This document shows positions 5,888-15,553 of a stretch of 23,999 nucleotides of DNA, piece by piece (within the stretch, counting starts at the first letter, position 1; each line of letters starts with the position of its first letter). The notes beneath the pieces were generated by a model. That model did not search any database, was not told the DNA's origin, and saw only the letters and a program-made list of their open reading frames with translations. This DNA is from Bathymodiolus azoricus thioautotrophic gill symbiont. Lineage in GTDB: Bacteria > Pseudomonadota > Gammaproteobacteria > PS1 > Pseudothioglobaceae. Position numbers and translations under genes: made by a program. The stretch is taken from contig NZ_CDSC02000026.1 of the NCBI RefSeq assembly GCF_001298715.1, forward strand, positions 1 through 23,999, in the 5' to 3' direction.

Positions 5888-6942
5888 TGCCTTTAATCGC
5901 CCATACCAACTTACCTTCTTTTGAACGCCTGCGTAACGAAGGCGAGACGGTGTTAAGCAAAGACCGTGCTAATCATCAAGTCATTCGTGAATTACACATT
6001 GGTTTATTAAACATGATGCCAGACCCAGCACTTGAAGCAACTGAGCGGCAATTTTTCCGCTTGATTGGACATTCTAACCAAATTGCGCAATTTTATCTGC
6101 ATCCGTTTACACTGCCTTCTATTAAACGAGGTGAAAAAACGCAGACACATATTGACCAATATTACCAAAGTTTTGATGATATTAAAACGCAGGGATTAGA
6201 TGCATTGATCATTACAGGCGCACATATTGAAGATGCCGATTTAAAAAAAGCACCTTTTTATGAGCAACTTAAAAAGGTGATTGATTGGTCGTATAGTCAT
6301 GTTACTTCAACGCTATGCTCGTGCTTGGCAACACACGCTGTACTGGAATTTCGCTATGGACAAAAGCGTCAAGCCATTGGTAAAAAATGCTGGGGCGTAT
6401 TTCCACACCAAGTGTTAGACCGACAACATCCTTTAATGAGTGGTGTGAATACGCGTTTTGATGTGCCTCACTCTCGTTTTAACGAAATCACGAAATCACA
6501 ACTTGACGATGCTAAGATTAAAGTTTTGGTTGAAGGAAAAATCGGCGCACACTTATGTGTGAGTGAAGATTTATTAAGAATTGTATTTTTTCAGGGGCAT
6601 CCAGAATACGATACTATTAGTCTATTAAAAGAATACAAGCGCGATATTATTGCCTATTTAGCAAAAACACGCAACGACTATCCGCCTTTTCCTAAGCACT
6701 ATTTAACCGAACAAAGCAAAGCCATTCTCAATGAGTATAAAACCAAGCTATTATCTGGCGAATTTACGCTAGCAGATTTTCCTGAACAACTTATCAGCAA
6801 AACCTTAAACAACACTTGGGGCAACGCCACTAATGTCATTATCAATAACTGGATTGGTTGCGTCTACCAAGTAACGCATCAGGACATTGACAAGCCATTT
6901 ATGGAGGGCATTAATCCAGATGACCCGCTTAACTTAAAATAG
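5887..6942 (+). CDS. metA: homoserine O-acyltransferase MetA (acetyl-CoA use predicted)
   Basis: Acylates homoserine, the first committed step of methionine synthesis in the cytosol. Catalytic residues are visible: nucleophile Cys146 in STLCSCLATHAV, and His238 and Glu240 in FFQGHPEYD, matching Cys142, His235 and Glu237 of E. coli. At 351 residues it is about 40 longer than E. coli MetA, mostly by a C-terminal extension. The annotation 'O-succinyltransferase' would be automatic, but Glu115 in TGAHIED aligns with position 111, where Gly goes with succinyl-CoA and Glu with acetyl-CoA in tested enzymes. The product may therefore be O-acetylhomoserine. The start overlaps the NTPase stop by 1 bp and the stop overlaps the mutY start by 1 bp. 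Confidence 0.93.
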   Translation: MPLIAHTNLPSFERLRNEGETVLSKDRANHQVIRELHIGLLNMMPDPALEATERQFFRLIGHSNQIAQFYLHPFTLPSIKRGEKTQTHIDQYYQSFDDIKTQGLDALIITGAHIEDADLKKAPFYEQLKKVIDWSYSHVTSTLCSCLATHAVLEFRYGQKRQAIGKKCWGVFPHQVLDRQHPLMSGVNTRFDVPHSRFNEITKSQLDDAKIKVLVEGKIGAHLCVSEDLLRIVFFQGHPEYDTISLLKEYKRDIIAYLAKTRNDYPPFPKHYLTEQSKAILNEYKTKLLSGEFTLADFPEQLISKTLNNTWGNATNVIINNWIGCVYQVTHQDIDKPFMEGINPDDPLNLK

Positions 6943-8042
6943 TGCATCCAATTTCAAAGCCATTGCTAAAGTGGTTTGAGCAATTTGGTCGTCATCACCT
7001 ACCTTGGCAAGCGACAAACAGTAGCCCTCTAGGAGGGCAGGCAACACATAGCGACCTATCATACAGCACGAGCAATTTACAGCAGTTCGCTGAGGGGAAG
7101 ACAATCAACCCTTACCATGTTTGGTTGAGTGAAATTATGCTACAACAAACGCAAGTAACCACGGTTATCGGCTACTTTAACAACTTTATTCAACATTTCC
7201 CAACAATAAAGGCGCTTGCCAATGCCAGCGAAGATGCAGTATTGGCACAATGGGCTGGGCTGGGTTACTACGCACGAGCAAGAAACTTGCACAAATGCGC
7301 GCAAATTATTGTTGAGCAGCATCAAGGCGCACTCCCAAAAAAGTTTGAACAAGTGATTGATTTGCCAGGTATAGGTGAATCTACAGCGGGCGCTATTCTA
7401 TCCATTAGTTTTAATCAGAACCACGCCATACTTGACGGCAATGTTAAACGCGTACTTTCAAGGTACCATCAAGTTAAGGGGCATTACGGACAAAGTGAAA
7501 CCCTTAAAGAATTATGGCGTTTGGCTAAGTATCACACGCCCAATAAACGCAATGCCAACTACACACAAGCCATTATGGACTTAGGTGCAACCCTGTGTAC
7601 ACGCAACAACCCAGAGTGTGATCGTTGCCCCCTTGCTCAACATTGTCAAGCAAAACAACACAACACACAAGGCAACCACCCCAACCCAAAACCAAGAAAA
7701 AACAAACCAACGCGCTCAGTTGCAATGCTTATTTATCAAAACACAGCAGGGGAGGTTTATTTAGAAAAACGACCGAAAAAAGGCATTTGGGGTGGGCTTT
7801 GGAGCCTTATGGAATGTGAAAATGATGAGAAAACCATTGACCAAGCCATTAAAAAATTTGATAAAAATGCAAAAATAGAACAGAAGCTGTCTACTATTAA
7901 GCATAGTTTTACCCACTATCACTTAATGATTAGCCCTATTATGGTAACTTGCTCAAAGAACACTGAGGGTTTTCGCTCTATTGCTGAATTAAAAGTTGGT
8001 TTGCCGGCACCTGTTAAGAAAATCATTGCCCAATTAGACTAA
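6942..8042 (+). CDS. mutY: adenine DNA glycosylase MutY with an in-frame insertion near the N-terminus
   Basis: Removes adenine mispaired with 8-oxoguanine. Domains in order: HhH-GPD glycosylase (about 1-240) and the NUDIX-like MutT-type domain that reads 8-oxoG (about 255-366). Catalytic Glu64 (LSEIMLQQTQV) and Asp165 (AILDGNVKRV) are present, as is the 4Fe-4S set Cys219-X6-Cys226-X2-Cys229-X5-Cys235. All of these sit exactly 27 residues later than in E. coli MutY, because about 29 extra residues lie between LPWQ (20-23) and NPYHVW (56-61). The extra segment is rich in Ser, Gly and Gln, and its DNA is GC-richer than its surroundings. The reading frame is intact and the core motifs are kept, so the enzyme may still work. 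GTG start at 6942 overlaps the metA stop by 1 bp. Confidence 0.95.
   Translation: MHPISKPLLKWFEQFGRHHLPWQATNSSPLGGQATHSDLSYSTSNLQQFAEGKTINPYHVWLSEIMLQQTQVTTVIGYFNNFIQHFPTIKALANASEDAVLAQWAGLGYYARARNLHKCAQIIVEQHQGALPKKFEQVIDLPGIGESTAGAILSISFNQNHAILDGNVKRVLSRYHQVKGHYGQSETLKELWRLAKYHTPNKRNANYTQAIMDLGATLCTRNNPECDRCPLAQHCQAKQHNTQGNHPNPKPRKNKPTRSVAMLIYQNTAGEVYLEKRPKKGIWGGLWSLMECENDEKTIDQAIKKFDKNAKIEQKLSTIKHSFTHYHLMISPIMVTCSKNTEGFRSIAELKVGLPAPVKKIIAQLD
7011..7106 (+). repeat. in-frame palindromic insertion inside mutY
   Basis: The segment encodes residues 24-55 of MutY, about 29 more than the family has here, so roughly 87 of its 96 bases are inserted. It counts 50 G+C of 96 (52%), clearly above the AT-rich flanks. 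It contains a perfect hairpin, GCCCTC (7024-7029), loop TAG, GAGGGC (7033-7038). Two of its modules recur in secA: AGTAGCCCTCTAGGAGGGC, which encodes SSPLGG, and ATAGCGACCTATCA, which encodes SDLS. Insertion without a frameshift and a related copy in a second gene point to a dispersed palindromic element rather than drift. Confidence 0.6.
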
Positions 8043-8051
8043 AATAACCCC

Positions 8052-8966
8052 ATGAAACTTATTCGTGGTCTACAGAATTTAACAACTTATGCGGGCAGTG
8101 TTGTTACCATAGGTAACTTTGATGGCGTACACATAGGACACCAAAAAATCATCTCGCAACTGGTGAAAAAATCCAAAGAACTGGGCTTGCCCTCTGTGCT
8201 GATTTCATTTTCCCCCACGCCACAGCGTTTTTTTTCTCATGAGCAAGCATCGCTCAGCAGTTTTAAAGAAAAACACCATCTATTGGACAAACTGGGCTTA
8301 GACACACACCTAATTATTCGCTTTAATCAGGCCTTTTCTCAATTAGAAGCGCAAATTTTTGCACAAGAAATATTACTCAACAAGCTAAATATGAAATATT
8401 GTCTGATTGGTGATGATTTTCGTTTTGGCAAAAAGCGGAAGGGTGGCTTTGAATCGTTACAAAACTTATCAAAAGACCAGGATTTTACGGTGGAACAAAC
8501 ACCCAGTATTCTGTGTAATAATCACCGCATTAGTAGTTCAGAAATTCGCAAACTTCTAGCAAATGCTAACATACAATCAGCATCAAAAATGCTGGGGCGT
8601 GAGTTCTCTATCACTGGCAAAATTATTCACGGGCTAAAAAACGGTCGCTCTATTGGTTTTCCAACTATCAACATCCCCATTAAACGCAAAATCAGCCCAG
8701 TTTATGGAATATTTGCTGTAACTATTGATCTGGATGGTGCTACTTATCAAGGTGTATGTAGTGTCGGCAATCGCCCAATAATTGGTGACAAGAAAACTCT
8801 GTTGGAAGTGTTTCTCTTTGATTTTAACCAGCAAGTGTACGGACTTGAGGCGAAAATCATCTTTAAACACAAGATTAGAGATGAGAGAAATTTTAATGAT
8901 TTTAAAGCGTTAAAACAACAAATTGAGCTCGATGTTCAAAATGCCAAAGATTATTTGACGAATTAA
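8052..8966 (+). CDS. ribF: bifunctional riboflavin kinase / FAD synthetase
   Basis: Phosphorylates riboflavin to FMN and adenylylates FMN to FAD in the cytosol. The N-terminal FAD synthetase domain (about 1-180) has the nucleotidyltransferase motif [11 protein letters not shown] (21-31, with HIGH at 27-30), [13 protein letters not shown] and [11 protein letters not shown]. The C-terminal flavokinase domain (about 185-304) has [42 protein letters not shown] and LEVFLFDF. At 304 residues it is near the normal length (E. coli 313). It follows mutY by 9 bp and closes the NTPase-metA-mutY-ribF run. Its stop overlaps the stop of the convergent pyrC by 4 bp, with no terminator visible. Confidence 0.96.
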
Positions 8967-10012
8967 ACCACTTTCCAATTAAGCATTTTTTCTGCCATAA
9001 ATGGCACAATATCGCCGCTTATGAAAGGATAACTTGCTGGCACGATCCAATCTTGTTTTTTCAAAGTAATGGTACTTGTGTTATACGCCAAACCATAAAA
9101 ATCTGCACCAAATTTTGAAGCAAAGCCCTCCAGCTTATCTATTGCACCTGCTTGGTCAAATGCTTGCGCATAAAGTTCAATAGCATGTGGTGCAGAAAAT
9201 ACGCCTGCACAACCACAACTAGATTCTTTATCAGTTTTGGCATGTGGTGCAGAATCTGTACCTAAGAAAAACCTAGGATTGCCACTGGTTGCCACCTCAA
9301 CGAGTGCACGCTGATGCTCAGCTCGTTTTAACACAGGCAAACAATAAGTATGTGGCTTAATACCGCCCACTAACATATCATTACGATTATTTAAAAGATG
9401 TTGAGGTGTGATAGTTGCCGCAACACGATCACCACTCTCACGCACAAAATCTACTGCATTTTTAGTGGTGATATGCTCAAATACAATTTTCAATTTAGGG
9501 AAGTCGTTCACCGTCTGACTTAAAACCTCATCAATAAATACCGCTTCACGGTCAAAAATATCCACCTCACTACGCGTTACCTCACCATGCACTAATAATA
9601 GCATACCCAGTTTTTGCATTGTCTCTAAGCTACGATAGATATTTTTAATATTGCTCACGCCACTATCAGAATTAATGGTTGCACCTGCAGGATATAGCTT
9701 TGCTGCCACCACGCCTGCGTTATAAGCCCGAGTAATTACCTCAGATGTGGTATTATCGGTCAAATATAAAGCCATTAACGGCTTAAATGTGCTGTCTTTT
9801 GGCAAAGCACTAAGGATTTCCTCTTGATACGCATTCGCACCATTTGCATCCGTCACAGGTGGGTTTAGATTGGGCATAATAATCGCTCTGCCCATTTGTT
9901 TGGCACTCATGCCAATGACTGATTTTAACGCTTCGCCATTACGCACATGTAGGTGCCAATCATCTGGTTTAATTAAGGTTATTTGTTGTTGTTTCATCTG
10001 TTCAAAAATCAT
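8963..10012 (-). CDS. pyrC: dihydroorotase, class II
   Basis: Closes N-carbamoyl-aspartate to dihydroorotate in pyrimidine synthesis; a cytosolic zinc enzyme. It belongs to the monofunctional E. coli-type group. Metal ligands and catalytic residues are present: His20 and His22 ([10 protein letters not shown]), the carbamylated Lys105 ([16 protein letters not shown]), His142 (LLVHGEV), His180 (FEHITT) and catalytic Asp253 (GTDSAPHA). Substrate-binding MPNLNPP is near residue 46. The annotated start gives 349 residues. Met6 (9997) would give 344 and fits the E. coli N-terminus slightly better; neither has a clear ribosome-binding site. It is transcribed alone, with its promoter in the 129-bp gap next to the AlbA_2 gene end. 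Together with pyrD at 20509 it gives two consecutive pyrimidine steps in the window. Confidence 0.95.
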
Positions 10013-10100
10013 TGTTTTTTTACTTAAAGTTTGTCTAATTAAAATTTATTTTTATTTTTAAACATTACCTTAAAGTCTTTATACAACTATCATTTAATAA

Positions 10101-10143
10101 AAAAAATGTCTAAAAATGTCTAAAAAATGTCTAAAAAATGTCT
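10101..10143 (-). repeat. four tandem ~11-bp repeats behind the AlbA_2 gene
   Basis: Reading the plus strand, AAAATGTCTA recurs with ATGTC starting at 10106, 10116, 10127 and 10138, so the spacing is 10, 11 and 11 bases. The array begins at the stop codon of the minus-strand AlbA_2 gene and runs toward pyrC. An inverted copy (TTTAGACATTTT, 10154-10165) lies inside the last codons of that gene. Confidence 0.8.
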
Positions 10144-10165
10144 AACTTTTAGGTTTAGACATTTT
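10132..10165 (-). terminator. possible hairpin terminator of the AlbA_2 gene
   Basis: AAAATGTCTAA (10135-10145) pairs with TTAGACATTTT (10155-10165) across a 9-base loop, giving an 11-bp perfect stem that starts within the last codons of the minus-strand gene. In the sense of that gene the stem is followed by short T-rich stretches supplied by the tandem repeats. The stem is AT-rich and the T run is broken, so termination may be weak. Confidence 0.35.
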
Positions 10166-11782
10166 CCATAACTTACCATATGGCTCTATTAGTTTTTGTT
10201 TTTTTAAACTTTGTAGGTTGTTCCGAACCTTGTTTCTTTTTTGTTGTTTGTTTAATACATCAGGCAACTTATCTAACAGCATTTCTTCAAAATCTTGTCG
10301 TCTGCCGTTTTTAAATTTTTTTAAAAAATCAAGTATCATTTTTTGACAGTAATCATTGTCAATACCTTTGTGTTTAATATAAACAGATTTTCCACCTGTT
10401 GATTCTGCAATAAAGGATGAAATATGAAAATTAGGCTTGCGCCCCTCAATCAACTTCTTACGCCTCAACACCTTAACCTCGGTATTCAACAAAGGTAGGT
10501 GTTTAGCGACTTTATCTAACAAAATAATCTCTTGTAAAGTTAAATCATTTTTTGATTGTGCAAGTCTGCGCGCATAGTTCACATCCAGTACTTTACCAAT
10601 AATTTTTACTTTGACTTTGTTGTCACCTAAGTTATATATTGGTAAAGGAAAGAACTTGTCCTCTTGCAGCTTAAACATTTTTTTAATACCACTACCAATG
10701 GTGTCAATCATACCTAAACCAACCATGGCATCTGCTAAAAATGGGTTGCGATAACAAGTTTCTGGCGCATCTACCTCAAGAACTTTTTCTATGCTTTCAG
10801 GAATGAATCCACCTGAGTTAATAAAAGTCAAAATACCGTCTTCCCTTTCCACCACATTAATTTTTCCGCCAAGTGTGTAATCTTGATGGGCAATACAGTT
10901 ATTTAATGCTTCACGAATAATATAAGGGTCAAACTGATTGGTCTGTTCAGGGAATAAAGTCTCTTCTGGTAAATAACGGTATTTTAAATTTCTAATTTTC
11001 GCATAAACATTATCAATATTCGCCAGCAATGGGCAGCTAAAGTGTTCATAATCTTTTTCAAGGTTGTCCTTGTCTTTTAATATCCAAGTGATTTTCGCCA
11101 CAGCGGGATTAATAAAATGTTCAGATTCTGGCTCTCCAAGCAGTAGTATCGCAGTATTGGTTATTTTTCCCTTAATAGTAACCTTGGACTTGTCTAGAAA
11201 TTTGGCATTATTCCACAAGTTTATCTCTGTTGCTAAATTAGGATTTTTTGTCAAAAATTGCTCTCGTGCTAGAACGATCGCTTCTGCAGAAAGATCTTCA
11301 ATTGTAGCATTATCAATAGTTTTTGCGCTCCAGTCAAAGGCAATATTTTGTCGTATAATTCGCTCTAATTCTTCTATATTAAGCGCGCCCAAACTCTCTC
11401 CATCTCTACCATAATAGTGACTCTTCCAACTGGTTAGCACACCCTTTGACGCAGGTGGAATTTGAAACATTAACACTTGTTTATCTTTAACATCAACACG
11501 ATAAATTTTTATAAAATTAGATGTTGGCGAGGTACTATTTGCTATTTCTCGCTTATATTCATTTAATGTTTGGTCGGTGATTTGTGTGCCAACAATACCA
11601 CGGTCATCGTTAACACCAAAAATCAACCATGCACAAGATTTATTGGCAAGATTGGCTTCATTGCTAAGTGCAGAAAAATATTTTCCTAGTTTATCTGCTT
11701 GAAAAGTGCGTTCGGCTGTTTTAAACTCTAACACTTCTGTTTCCATGCCTTCTGCTAATAATCTTTCTAAAGTGTCTATCAT
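10142..11782 (-). CDS. AlbA_2 (Schlafen-type) and GHKL ATPase domain protein
   Basis: A 546-residue protein of the type often labelled 'ATP-binding protein' or 'RecG-like transcriptional regulator'. Domain order: AlbA_2/Schlafen nucleic-acid-binding domain at about 1-130 (EVLEFK 16-21, SALSNEANL 37-45, AWLIFGVNDDRGIVGT 51-66); GHKL ATPase of the HATPase_c_4 type at about 285-375, with N-box REALNNCIAHQDY (290-302), INSGGF (321-326) and GLGMIDTIGSGIKKMF (355-370); and a basic C-terminal winged-helix-like part. Family members are scattered by horizontal transfer, and some act in regulation or phage defence; the role here is unknown. Its start overlaps the anmK stop as ATGA, so it is translationally coupled to that gene. 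A repeat array and hairpin follow it. Confidence 0.88.
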   Translation of the reverse strand: MIDTLERLLAEGMETEVLEFKTAERTFQADKLGKYFSALSNEANLANKSCAWLIFGVNDDRGIVGTQITDQTLNEYKREIANSTSPTSNFIKIYRVDVKDKQVLMFQIPPASKGVLTSWKSHYYGRDGESLGALNIEELERIIRQNIAFDWSAKTIDNATIEDLSAEAIVLAREQFLTKNPNLATEINLWNNAKFLDKSKVTIKGKITNTAILLLGEPESEHFINPAVAKITWILKDKDNLEKDYEHFSCPLLANIDNVYAKIRNLKYRYLPEETLFPEQTNQFDPYIIREALNNCIAHQDYTLGGKINVVEREDGILTFINSGGFIPESIEKVLEVDAPETCYRNPFLADAMVGLGMIDTIGSGIKKMFKLQEDKFFPLPIYNLGDNKVKVKIIGKVLDVNYARRLAQSKNDLTLQEIILLDKVAKHLPLLNTEVKVLRRKKLIEGRKPNFHISSFIAESTGGKSVYIKHKGIDNDYCQKMILDFLKKFKNGRRQDFEEMLLDKLPDVLNKQQKRNKVRNNLQSLKKQKLIEPYGKLWKMSKPKS

Positions 11783-12858
11783 AGAATATTCTTATCAATT
11801 TGATAAATTGCACCTAAAATCCGCCTGCCTTTAGCGCCGGTTACCAGCGGTAGGTTTGATGGCTCACCATTCATTGTTTGTTTGGCAAAATAAGCAAAAG
11901 CCGCCGCTTCTACATAATCCACTGGCACGCCTAAATCATCAGTCACTGAGATTTCACTCTCAGGATTTTGATAAGTTAGGCGTTCGCATAAAAACAAATT
12001 ATGTACACCGCCGCCGCATAAATAGACATCTTCTCCCTTAGGGATACTTGCAGAAATGCTCATTACCGTTAGTTCTGTCAGGGTTCTTTGCACATCTTCA
12101 GGTGTCTCAGCACTTGTTAAGTGTTGTGATAGCCAGTCTAGGTTAAAGTATTCTGGTCCTGTACTTTTGGGGTACTTTTGCTGAAAGTAATCATCTGCAA
12201 GTATTGAGTCTAGTAACACTGAATCAACCACTCCAGAACGAGACCACAGTCCGTCTCGGTCATAATTTGTGCCTTTATTTTTCTTTACCCAATTATCTAA
12301 TAATGTATTGGCAGGGCCTGTGTCAAATCCAAACACCTCATTGTTTTTAACAATCGTAATATTGGCAATACCACCCAAATTAATAATCACACCCTCTTTG
12401 CCATTAAGCATATATTGGTGGTATGCTGGCGTGAGTGGTGCACCTTGCCCGCCAGTGGCAATATCTTGCATACGAAAATCTGCCACTGTGGTAATGCCTG
12501 TTTGCTCAGCAATAAGTGCACCGTGTCCGATTTGCATAGAATACTTGCTACCTTGATGGTAGATAGTCTGTCCATGAGAGCCAATCGCTCGGATGTCATC
12601 CTTATTCAATGAGCTTTGCGTTAATAGTTGATTGGCAGTTTGTGCAAATATTTGTGCCACCTCAATATCAACTTGCGCCAAGTCTGCCAAAGAGGTGTTT
12701 CCAGTTTGGCTTAATTGTTGCAAGCGTGTTTTTAGCTCTATGGGGTATGGGGTATAAGCTGAGGTAATAATTTTTTGACGCTCGTCAAGTATAACACCGT
12801 CAACACCATCCATGCTGGTGCCTGACATTAGTCCTATATAGGCACTAGCTTTTGCCAT
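11779..12858 (-). CDS. anmK: anhydro-N-acetylmuramic acid kinase
   Basis: Opens and phosphorylates 1,6-anhydro-MurNAc to MurNAc-6-phosphate in cytosolic peptidoglycan recycling. Family motifs: [16 protein letters not shown] at the N-terminus, [63 protein letters not shown] and [13 protein letters not shown] chose ATG at 12858 (359 residues), since the conserved sequence begins within a few residues of it; a frame-open GTG at 12888 would add ten unconserved residues. With this start it overlaps the secA 3' end by 14 bp. The next gene overlaps its stop by 4 bp. No strong ribosome-binding site is visible, which fits translational coupling to secA. Confidence 0.93.
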
Positions 12859-15553
12859 GACATTGTTTGTATTTTTTGCCTGAGCCACAAGGGCAAGGGT
12901 TATTACGCCCTATCTTCGCACCACTGCGTTGATAAGTTTGCGAATCATTTGGGGTCTCGCTATCTGTATTTTCCATTGCTACAGCTTCGTGCTGTGTGTT
13001 CCCCCCCAGAGGATTGCTGTGTATCGCTGATATGTCGCTATTGTCTTGTTGCTCTACATTCTCAGCGCTAATGTTCTCATCAATGGCCACACTGGAAAGC
13101 GCCTTAACAATCTCAATATTAATCGTATTTAACAGGGTTTCGAACATTGCAAAAGACTCACGCTTATATTCTTGCGTTGGATTTTTCTGTGCATAGCCTC
13201 GCAACTTCACACTTTGACGCAAACAATCCATCGCTGCCAAATGTTCTTTCCAAAAATGATCCAAGGTTTGCAACATCACTGCTTTTTCAAAGCCACGCAT
13301 TTGCTCACCACCCACAATCTCTTCTTTGTAATCACAAATTTGCCCCAAACCTTGGGAAATTCTTGATTCCAATTCATTTACATCCACACCTTCATCCAGC
13401 CATTCTTGTAGCGGAAAATCTGCCGCATAATCTGCTTTTAAAACATTGTGCAGACCTTCAACATCCCAATCTTCTTCAGCTTGTGCTGGGGAAATGTAAT
13501 CAGCAAACAAATCACCAACAACCTCTTGACGAATAGCAATAAATCTATCTTGCACATCGTTGGAGTCCATCAATTCATCGCGTAATTTATAAATAATCTT
13601 ACGCTGGTCATTTGACACATCATCATATTCTAAAAGGTCTTTACGCGCGTCATAGTTCATTTCTTCGACTTTTTTCTGTGCATTTTCAATAGCGCGATTC
13701 ACCATCTTGTGCTCAATCGCTTCGCCTTTTTCCATGCCCAATCGCTGCATCATCGCCGCCATTTTTTCACTGGCAAAAATACGCATTAAATTGTCTTTTA
13801 AAGATAGATAAAAACGCGTTGAACCTACATCACCTTGACGACCAGAACGACCACGCAACTGATTATCCACACGACGAGACTCGTTACGCTCGGTACCCAC
13901 AATATGCAATCCGCCCGCTTTAATCACATCATCATGGTGTTTTTGCCAATCTTGTTTTTGCGCATCGGTTGCATCTTCTGCTAATTTGCCGCCCAGTACA
14001 ATATCCGTGCCTCGACCTGCCATATTAGTCGCAATTGTCACCGCACCAATCGCACCTGCGTTGGCAATAATTTGCGCTTCACGCTCATGCTGTTTAGCGT
14101 TTAAAACCTCGTGTTTGACTTTCTTTTGCGTCAGCAGCGCTGAAATAGCTTCGGAATTTTCGATACTACTTGTGCCTACTAAAACAGGCTGCCCTGTCTT
14201 TTGACAGCCTTCTACATCTTGAGCGATTGCTTCTAATTTTTCATCTAATGTTAGATAAATTTTGTCAGACATATCGTCTCGTGATGACGCCCTATTCGGT
14301 GGCACAACCACAGTTTCTAAATTATAAATTGCTTGAAATTCAACCGCCTCAGTATCTGCTGTACCTGTCATACCTGAGAGCTTATTGTAGAGTCTAAAAT
14401 AGTTTTGAAAAGTAATCGACGCTAAGGTCTGATTTTCATTTTTAATGCTCACACCTTCTTTGGCTTCAATCGCCTGATGCAGGCCTTCAGACCAGCGACG
14501 CCCCGGCATCGTTCTACCAGTAAACTCATCAACAATCACCACCTCATTGCCATCAACAATATAGTTGTCATCTTTATGAAACAAAACATGCGCACGCAGT
14601 GCTGAATTAATATGTTGCATCAGCAAAATATTGCTAGCGTCATATAAACTCACGCCTTCTGGTAAGACACCAACTTCAATTAATAAATTTTCTGCTTTAG
14701 CGTGCCCCTCATCAGTCAAAAACACCTGCTGATGCTTCTCATCAACGGTGTAATCACCCACTTTTTCAACCACAGCCTCTTTACCTTCACCGCTCTCAGT
14801 TTGTTTGGTAAAGTTTGGAATCATGTGGTTAATCGCCTGATAAATCTCAGAATAATCGTCTGCTGATCCAGAGATAATAAGTGGCGTTCTGGCTTCATCA
14901 ACTAGAATAGAATCAACCTCATCAATAATAGCAAAATTAAGTTCACGCTGTACTTTTTGCTCAGTAGTGAACGCCATGTTGTCTCTTAGATAGTCAAAAC
15001 CTAACTCGTTATTCGTTGCATAAACAATGTCACAGTCGTAAGCGACTTTTTTATTTTCTGGCAGCATGTCTGAGGTGATAATGCCAACACTTAAATCTAA
15101 AAAATCAAATATTTTGCCCATCCACTGCGCATCACGCGCTGCCAAATAATCATTCACCGTAACGATATGAACACCCTTGCCAGTCAGTGCGTTTAGATAA
15201 GCGGGCAAAGTTGCCACTAAAGTTTTTCCTTCGCCCGTACCCATCTCAGCAATATTGCCGTCATGTAACACCATGCCGCCGATCATTTGCACATCGTGGT
15301 GTCTGAGCCTTAGCACTCTAACACTGGCTTCACGAATCACTGCAAACGCTTCTGGCAACAGAGACTCTAATGTTGCTTGATTTTCCAATTTTTGCTTAAG
15401 TTCTTGTGTTTTAGCGCTTAATGCTTTGTCATCCAAAGCTTGCAACCCAGGCTCAAGTACATTAATGCCTTCAACTACCTTGCTTAGTTTTTTTATTAGC
15501 CTATCATTGCGAGAGCCGACAATTTTAGCGGCAATTTTATTTATAATGCTCAT
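12845..15553 (-). CDS. secA: preprotein translocase ATPase SecA
   Basis: The motor that drives unfolded precursors through SecYEG at the inner membrane. The 902-residue length is normal (E. coli 901). Visible: Walker A MGTGEGKT (104-111), [89 protein letters not shown], and the C-terminal zinc site [14 protein letters not shown] (Cys887, Cys889, Cys898, His899) that binds SecB and phospholipids. The linker before the zinc site (about 835-870) carries modules shared with the mutY insertion and a run of seven G. It is divergent from dciA across 79 bp and begins the secA-anmK-AlbA_2 run. Confidence 0.98.
12981..13042 (-). repeat. copy of the mutY-insertion modules in the SecA C-terminal linker
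   Basis: On the coding strand this reads ATAGCGACATATCA, then a short spacer, then CAGCAATCCTCTGGGGGG, AACACA and CAGCACGAAGCTG. It matches ATAGCGACCTATCA, CAGTAGCCCTCTAGGAGGG and CAGCACGA of the mutY insertion, with the first two modules in swapped order. The translations share SD(I/L)S (SecA 839-842) and S(N/S)PLGG (846-851), so both genes read the element in the same frame. The SecA linker is variable in length and sequence, so an insertion here would be tolerated. Confidence 0.45.

Follow-up and report, generated by a model that had tools for sequence, protein, structure and literature searches.

A palindromic ten-codon repeat, apparently translated in mutY and other genes, in one family of sulfur-oxidising Gammaproteobacteria

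The window analysed here, 23,999 nt from the thioautotrophic gill symbiont of Bathymodiolus azoricus, encodes a MutY protein with extra residues in its conserved N-terminus, and the question that this locus raises is what kind of DNA was added there. The gene (6942..8042, + strand, GTG start) specifies an A/G-specific adenine glycosylase of 366 aa that matches NCBIfam TIGR01084 with 350.5 bits (cut-off 286.5) as well as MutY entries of the PDB, and its nearest named relatives belong to Bathymodiolus sulfur-oxidising symbionts, Thiodubiliella and Ruthturnera. A sequence-only reading of this DNA had placed Gln23 and the catalytic Glu64 41 residues apart, against 12 in E. coli MutY, with a constant offset of 27 residues downstream, and had concluded that about 29 residues were gained in frame. 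The ORF residues 23 and 64 and the PDB alignment of E. coli MutY (Q25 of LPWQ, E37 of WLSE) bear out all of these figures. The net gain is 29 residues relative to E. coli and 28 relative to the commonest linker among relatives (37 versus 9), and 34 residues separate LPW from the PYxxWLSE motif with Glu64, compared with 6 in most parsed relatives. The G+C content of 52 % reported for the added DNA was also reproduced (0.52 at 7011-7106, and 0.53 at 7008-7097), against 0.42 for the remainder of mutY.

The same reading had drawn attention to a perfect hairpin with a 6 bp stem and a 3 nt loop, which is indeed present (GCCCTC-TAG-GAGGGC, 7024..7038, + strand); the window contains 13 such hairpins, however, so this one is unremarkable by itself. 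When the insert region was compared by BLAST with its own genome a second place was found, and a wider search yielded more in that genome and in others of the same genus. The repeated unit is 30 nt, or ten codons, long, with a consensus of about CTAGCGACACACAGCARTCCTCTRGGAGGG. A covariance model of 32 positions (R1), built from 16 copies of which none came from the window, finds 12 places in the window's genome at E≤0.01, including 7008-7039 (+) and 12999-13030 (−). The first of these matches scores 43.5 bits, with an E-value of 2.3e-8 for the 1.86 Mb genome, and is thus far beyond chance.

The insert can be read as three head-to-tail units of 30 nt (7008-7097) that start directly after the LPW codons (6999-7007), about 6 nt of the former linker having been lost beside them. 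Unit 1 (7008..7037, + strand) reads QATNSSPLGG and accounts for the strong model match. Unit 2 (7038..7067, + strand; QATHSDLSYS) is degenerate, although its first half is in register with the unit at the expected 30 nt spacing and the relatives P0047 and P0067 have clear second units. Unit 3 (7068..7097, + strand; TSNLQQFAEG), also degenerate, is in another phase and matches the model weakly (7.9 bits at 7069-7091, E-value of 0.67 within the window), and its peptide is similar to the frame +2 copies TCDLQQSSGR of G080 and TGDLQQSSRR of P0067. The score of units 2 and 3 against the G080 homologue is equalled by 53 of 2000 codon shuffles, and the two units are too degenerate for proof on their own. 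Taking the three together, we consider it likely that the MutY insert consists of three tandem copies of a dispersed palindromic 30 nt repeat belonging to one family of sulfur-oxidising Gammaproteobacteria. The earlier proposal of an in-frame insertion thus stands, but the added DNA begins at 7008 and would represent three units and not a single event of 87 nt.

The palindrome is a property of the repeat as a whole. The unit has a stem of 5 to 6 bp, and 413 of 430 stem cells are paired across units, a number reached in 1 of 2000 shuffles, while double changes that affect both sides of the stem number 5 against 1.2 in shuffles (7 of 2000 as high); both tests are blind to the relatedness of the copies. 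Among 86 unique units the majority letters before the stem are CAGCA, and GTAG occurs there in minority variants only, the window copy included. All of the arrays that were read (G003:C97, C113 and C47; G008:C6; G018:C33) run head to tail with a 30 nt period. A search of 6900-13200 against Rfam gave nothing at the repeat and two sub-threshold matches elsewhere only. The mutY gene of G003 (L096, G003:C47) contains three units in a row that are identical at the protein level, with an N run in the assembly further on, and a Sel1-repeat protein (L203, G008:C6) has five perfect decapeptide units and a degenerate one in tandem near its N-terminus, a tract that is likely to vary in length.

The repeat recurs in the family of the window's genome, which we take to be the Thioglobaceae. 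At E≤0.001 with stricter filters it was found in 31 of 83 genomes of this family, representing five of 11 genera, and one large genus (29 genomes) yielded no units at all under those settings. Outside the family none of 15 genomes has a unit at E≤0.01, and with the stricter filters two of 141 do at that threshold, with E-values (0.0013 and 0.0091) that are about the level expected by chance. Carriage by phages or plasmids was considered and rejected, there being no match to an exact 26-base pattern in IMG/VR and none to the insert region in a distant blastn search of phages and plasmids, both searches to which divergent units are invisible. As judged from these comparisons of genome sequences, we regard the repeat as real, restricted to this lineage and apparently translated. 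The sequence-only reading had likened the insert to the palindromic elements of Rickettsia and had advised a search for further copies; dispersal and in-frame occurrence in many genes agree with that comparison, whereas the length of 30 nt, in place of about 100-150 nt, does not.

The history of the MutY site can be followed in 111 of 120 proteins for which the linker, counted from LPW, could be parsed (the other nine are truncated there). Linker lengths are 9 (72 proteins), 11 (3), 12 (21), 15 (1), 18 (2), 19 (5), 22 (2), 29 (2), 37 (1, the window) and 42 (2) residues; 19 and 29 correspond to 9 plus ten and twenty, and 22 and 42 to 12 plus ten and thirty. Linkers of 18 and 37 are neither 9 nor 12 plus tens and thus must have lost residues. 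The stepwise series is plain in LPW-QSKPAN (P0014), LPW[QATYSSPRGG]QSKPAN (G016) and LPW[QATYSSPLGG][QAPHSSPLGG]QSKPAN (P0047), while the proteins of P0067 and G080 have an extra frame +2 copy nested within a unit. The window's MutY has three units and a shortened tail, and its sister P0003 retains pieces only (QVSNNSPQASHSTPN), in a linker that is identical in G006 and the Bathymodiolus sp. 5 South symbiont. Some 12-residue linkers (ASHSSPAN, ASNSSPVN) resemble remnants of the unit, but others (IGQKNKAN) do not. The insert is thus absent or shorter in many relatives, and the genome contains other copies of the DNA. The earlier reading had named as telling against it that every relative should share a conserved segment of this kind and that the genome should lack further copies, and neither was found.

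A recognizable unit is present in 13 of the 111 MutY proteins, in other genera as well. On a tree of these proteins, made by a quick method with the linker excluded and with linker states parsed by a strict pattern, this state requires at least ten changes, of which seven are forced by well-supported branches; with shuffled labels the mean is 12.5, and a value as low as ten came up in 5 of 500 shuffles. This argues that the site has either been filled repeatedly, or was filled early and then emptied many times. In an AlphaFold2 model made with 59 sequences (mean pLDDT 87), whose top Foldseek matches are MutY-DNA complexes, residues 27-52 are the only stretch with a pLDDT below 50, and because of this the insert is most likely a loose loop, the point on which the earlier reading had proposed modelling. 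The helix that carries Glu64 (residues 57-67) follows this low-pLDDT stretch within the insert, as had been supposed. Most likely the insert is neutral for MutY, forming a disordered loop ahead of the helix that bears the catalytic residue.

The second copy in the window, which the earlier reading had missed, lies in secA (12845..15553, − strand), the gene for a preprotein translocase subunit SecA of 902 aa from its ATG (ORF; NCBIfam NF009538, 1196 bits, cut-off 814). It is a single unit (12999..13030, − strand; R1 30.7 bits, E-value of 5.2e-5 genome-wide) in the C-terminal linker, where it has the sense orientation and the reading frame of the MutY copy. The linker reads NNEDVQTQHEE in G092 and DNSDI...TQHEA in the window, which has ten more residues, and these ten are missing from SecA of G003, G016 and G092. 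Of 20 SecA loci six were parsed, with a unit in the window's genome (G000) and in G006, none in those three, and an apparent remnant in G018. A reductase-like gene gives a further comparison of this type, NIAG-LAIEPG in G095 against NIAG[LAIHSSPLGG]LAIEPG in G093, again a difference of ten residues, and 3 of its 15 parsed loci (of 19) have the unit and 12 do not.

The clearest full and empty copies are within the window's genome itself, where many contigs (e.g. L299-L308) contain a MITE-like element about 161 bp long that is bounded by GAGACCTTTGCATAAATA terminal inverted repeats; 50 such ends are found within two mismatches. Among 15 aligned copies seven are empty, seven contain a unit and one, internally deleted, is without the site. 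The unit (CCAGCGACACCCAGCAGTCCTCTAGGAGGG or a variant) lies between GATTTTT and TAAACCC, and one of the seven is a degenerate unit of 29 nt. The seven copies probably trace to one insertion that was multiplied by the MITE. No target duplication is evident when full and empty copies are aligned, and this is the sole pair that fixes the ends of the unit unambiguously. All of the full and empty pairs (mutY, secA, the reductase-like gene and the MITE) differ by 30 nt, and the same ends are compatible with every pair examined.

How might such a unit spread? The bases just upstream provide one indication: at positions −3 to −1 of 23 single copies picked by hand, 37 of 69 letters match the last three bases of the unit, against a background mean of 11.5 and a maximum of 17, while the 3′ flank (19 of 69; background 13.1, maximum 21) is not clearly enriched. 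GG is nevertheless absent just upstream at 10 of the 23 sites, including the clean MITE site (TTTTT). A fixed target duplication was rejected as a rule, the 5′ and 3′ trimers being identical at five of the 23 sites, with 36 of 69 letters the same, a value reached by 345 of 10000 shuffles. We propose that a copy lands in a gene, where its 30 nt would preserve the frame; that the sense frame 0 would supply a peptide that is free of stops, small and polar, so that copies in loops and linkers would survive; and that arrays would later lengthen, shorten and degenerate until only scars such as LPWQASHSSPAN are left. The movement may be transposition-like, a possibility that we place somewhat below an even chance and that would account for the defined ends, the missing target duplication, the hairpin and the preference for GG just upstream. 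Elements of the IS200/REP type transpose as single strands, and a single-strand enzyme of this kind (Y1/HUH type) acting in trans would yield such features, the unit's own GGG end attracting the next copy. We suggest, tentatively and aware that it could well prove wrong, an undescribed mobile element of exactly ten codons that would have defined ends, be moved by way of its hairpin by an enzyme acting in trans, leave no target duplication, offer its own end as the target for the next copy and so build in-frame arrays in essential genes.

The main rival to transposition is template switching at short GG homology, by which the unit would spread without an enzyme of its own: during replication a nascent strand switches at GG-rich homology to an array that already exists elsewhere, copies one 30 nt period and returns, and slippage then builds the arrays. 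The similarity of the 5′ flank to the end of the unit itself is what such a process would leave, as is the resemblance of the reductase site GGGCTAGCAAT to the unit junction GAGGG-CTAGCGAT; the head-to-tail course of the arrays that were read suits it as well, and so does the failure to find a mover, since a search of 30 genomes for Y1_Tnp (PF01797) gave no match in that of the window. Template switching should, however, also produce rotated units, whereas identical ends fit the pairs examined, and the clean MITE site is without homology of this sort; it is a serious candidate that we nonetheless judge to be on the unlikely side.

Slightly less probable still is that a RAYT/REP pair of the family moves the unit, the transposase having been lost from the window's genome or missed in the draft. 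Y1_Tnp is found in 11 of 12 unit-bearing genomes and in one of seven unit-free genomes among 19 of the family, although several of the 12 have a single weak unit and the co-occurrence is confounded by kinship. Scanning eight Y1 transposase loci of relatives with the unit model revealed no unit at any of them, and the sole Y1 transposase of G003, the genome with the most copies in the E≤0.01 search, is flanked by a different repeat; a RAYT was for these reasons rejected as the proven mover and is kept as a rival only. The G003 gene (L193, G003:C119), which is RAYT-like, has the hairpin repeat GAGGAAGGCAAGGCTTTCACC on its flanks, and the adjoining ORF appears porin-like by eye.

The unit sits in genes and at many sites outside them. 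The 111 places examined (66 of the 75 in the E≤0.01 set, nine same-array neighbours being left out, and 45 of the 46 new ones in the E≤0.001 set, with one neighbour left out) include 42 inside ORFs of at least 110 codons in the first set or 100 in the second, and 69 outside ORFs of those lengths. After five short or unconvincing rows were removed (two of G011 and one each of G002, G084 and G089), the remaining 37 were merged by eye into 20 gene sites in a tally made by hand, and families were assigned by NCBIfam or Pfam searches with a single sequence for each gene. The sites are in MutY, SecA, YhdP, BioF (slightly under the model cut-off), RuvB, NadB, an isomerase of the KpsF/KdsD type, PepN (two sites, one named by eye), MoaA, the Sel1-repeat protein, MurU, a DUF2201 protein, an Lcl_C protein, the reductase-like protein (without a family match), Gor, LpxB, PgeF, AhcY and MoaC. 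In the DUF2201 protein the unit (about residues 313-322) falls in the gap that separates Pfam domains at 48-311 and 336-460. The N-terminal copies (NadB, RuvB, MoaA, AhcY, MoaC, Gor, PgeF and Lcl_C) may partly precede the true start. At the extreme N-termini of AhcY, MoaC and the Lcl_C protein (L104 in G024, L073 in G014, L188 in G073, L192 in G078) there are truncated units that lack the 3′ arm of the hairpin and, in a different frame, encode KRHTA(I/V)Q or KRHTAQ. An ATG comes immediately after the unit at the end of lpxB (L158 in G096, L151 in G097, L155 in G090); it overlaps the end of that gene and may be the start of the next one.

By the same hand tally 19 of the 20 gene sites have the unit on the sense strand and one, in PepN, has it antisense; 14 sites use frame 0, three use frame +2 and two, which are copies missing the 3′ arm of the hairpin, use frame +1. 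Binomial values computed from these counts take no account of common descent among the copies. Frame 0 encodes [QL]AxxS[SN]PLGG, typically [QL]ATHS[SN]PLGG, and frame +2 encodes SDTQQSS(G/R)RA. It is very unlikely, in our view, that the decapeptide is a useful protein module, either a flexible linker or a recognition tag, which protein-level selection has retained and spread. The one frame common to 14 sites might suggest this, together with differences that keep the peptide (for example AGCAGTCCT and AGTAGCCCT, both Ser-Ser-Pro), but most places are outside ORFs of the chosen lengths, Gor, LpxB, PgeF, AhcY and MoaC use other frames and PepN the antisense strand, and only the 13 MutY relatives already mentioned have a recognizable unit. 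Two of the other frames have stops in the TAG-loop form, and the antisense frames encode Cys and hydrophobic residues, so the bias to frame 0 can come from tolerance. That the insert is an ordinary hypervariable MutY loop whose likeness to repeats elsewhere is chance can be dismissed, since even though linkers vary anyway from 9 to 42 residues and some of 12 residues are unlike the unit, the match to a model free of window sequence refutes it, and 30 nt steps and DNA common to unrelated genes and MITEs speak against it too.

A literature search of narrow scope found no prior description of this repeat family, and its likeness to known systems is only partial. Rickettsia palindromic elements are about 105-150 bp long, form long stem-loops, fall into ten families and lie in frame in Rickettsia genes, and one tested protein remains active (PMC10969869, PMC2229807); the present repeat is likewise palindromic, in frame in unrelated conserved genes (the 20 sites) and also intergenic, but it is set apart from their description by its 30 nt length, its 5 to 6 bp stem, its head-to-tail arrays and its occurrence in Gammaproteobacteria. 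GTAG/CGTC REPs are stem-loops of 20-40 bp, some of them intragenic and many in replication or repair genes, and over half of the intragenic ones occur as dimers or groups that encode 20-30 residues; they include the intragenic RPE-4 and RPE-6 of R. conorii (PMC3733652). The unit shares with these the palindrome, the size range, the dispersal and the partly intragenic location, singly or in groups, but its consensus has no GTAG or CGTC tag by the stem, it was found in one bacterial family only, units in the arrays that were read follow one another head to tail at 30 nt intervals, and no RAYT with a unit was found at the eight Y1 loci. PARCELs are palindromic coding repeats, in tandem and in flux between genomes, with a conserved Trp and mostly in membrane or surface proteins (PMC2996958); the unit is also palindromic, coding and tandem, but its frame 0 peptide, ten linker-like residues, is without Trp and its hosts are mostly housekeeping enzymes. 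MITEs such as ERIC, Correia/NEMIS and RUP are small non-autonomous repeats that are sometimes translated in frame (PMC2229807), but the unit is at most about a third of their size, shows no target duplication at the clean site and is itself nested inside a MITE-like element. The unit thus works like RPEs, REPs and PARCELs, yet departs from each in a defining feature, be it size, tag or motif.

Rickettsia is the best-known source of in-frame palindromic elements, and some other genomes have them as REPs; this family offers a clean case outside Rickettsia. Its unit is ten codons long, one genome holds the same MITE with and without it, and orthologous genes across the family show many states; the step size, the missing target duplication, the frame bias and the co-occurrence with Y1 are all testable. 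There is also a warning for annotation, in that insertions of this type in MutY, SecA, RuvB and MoaA are repeats and not protein domains. If the unit is indeed a mobile element of ten codons, it would rank with the smallest self-contained mobile units and would go on supplying insertions to proteins, having placed in-frame decapeptide arrays in repair, secretion, cofactor and envelope enzymes of five genera.
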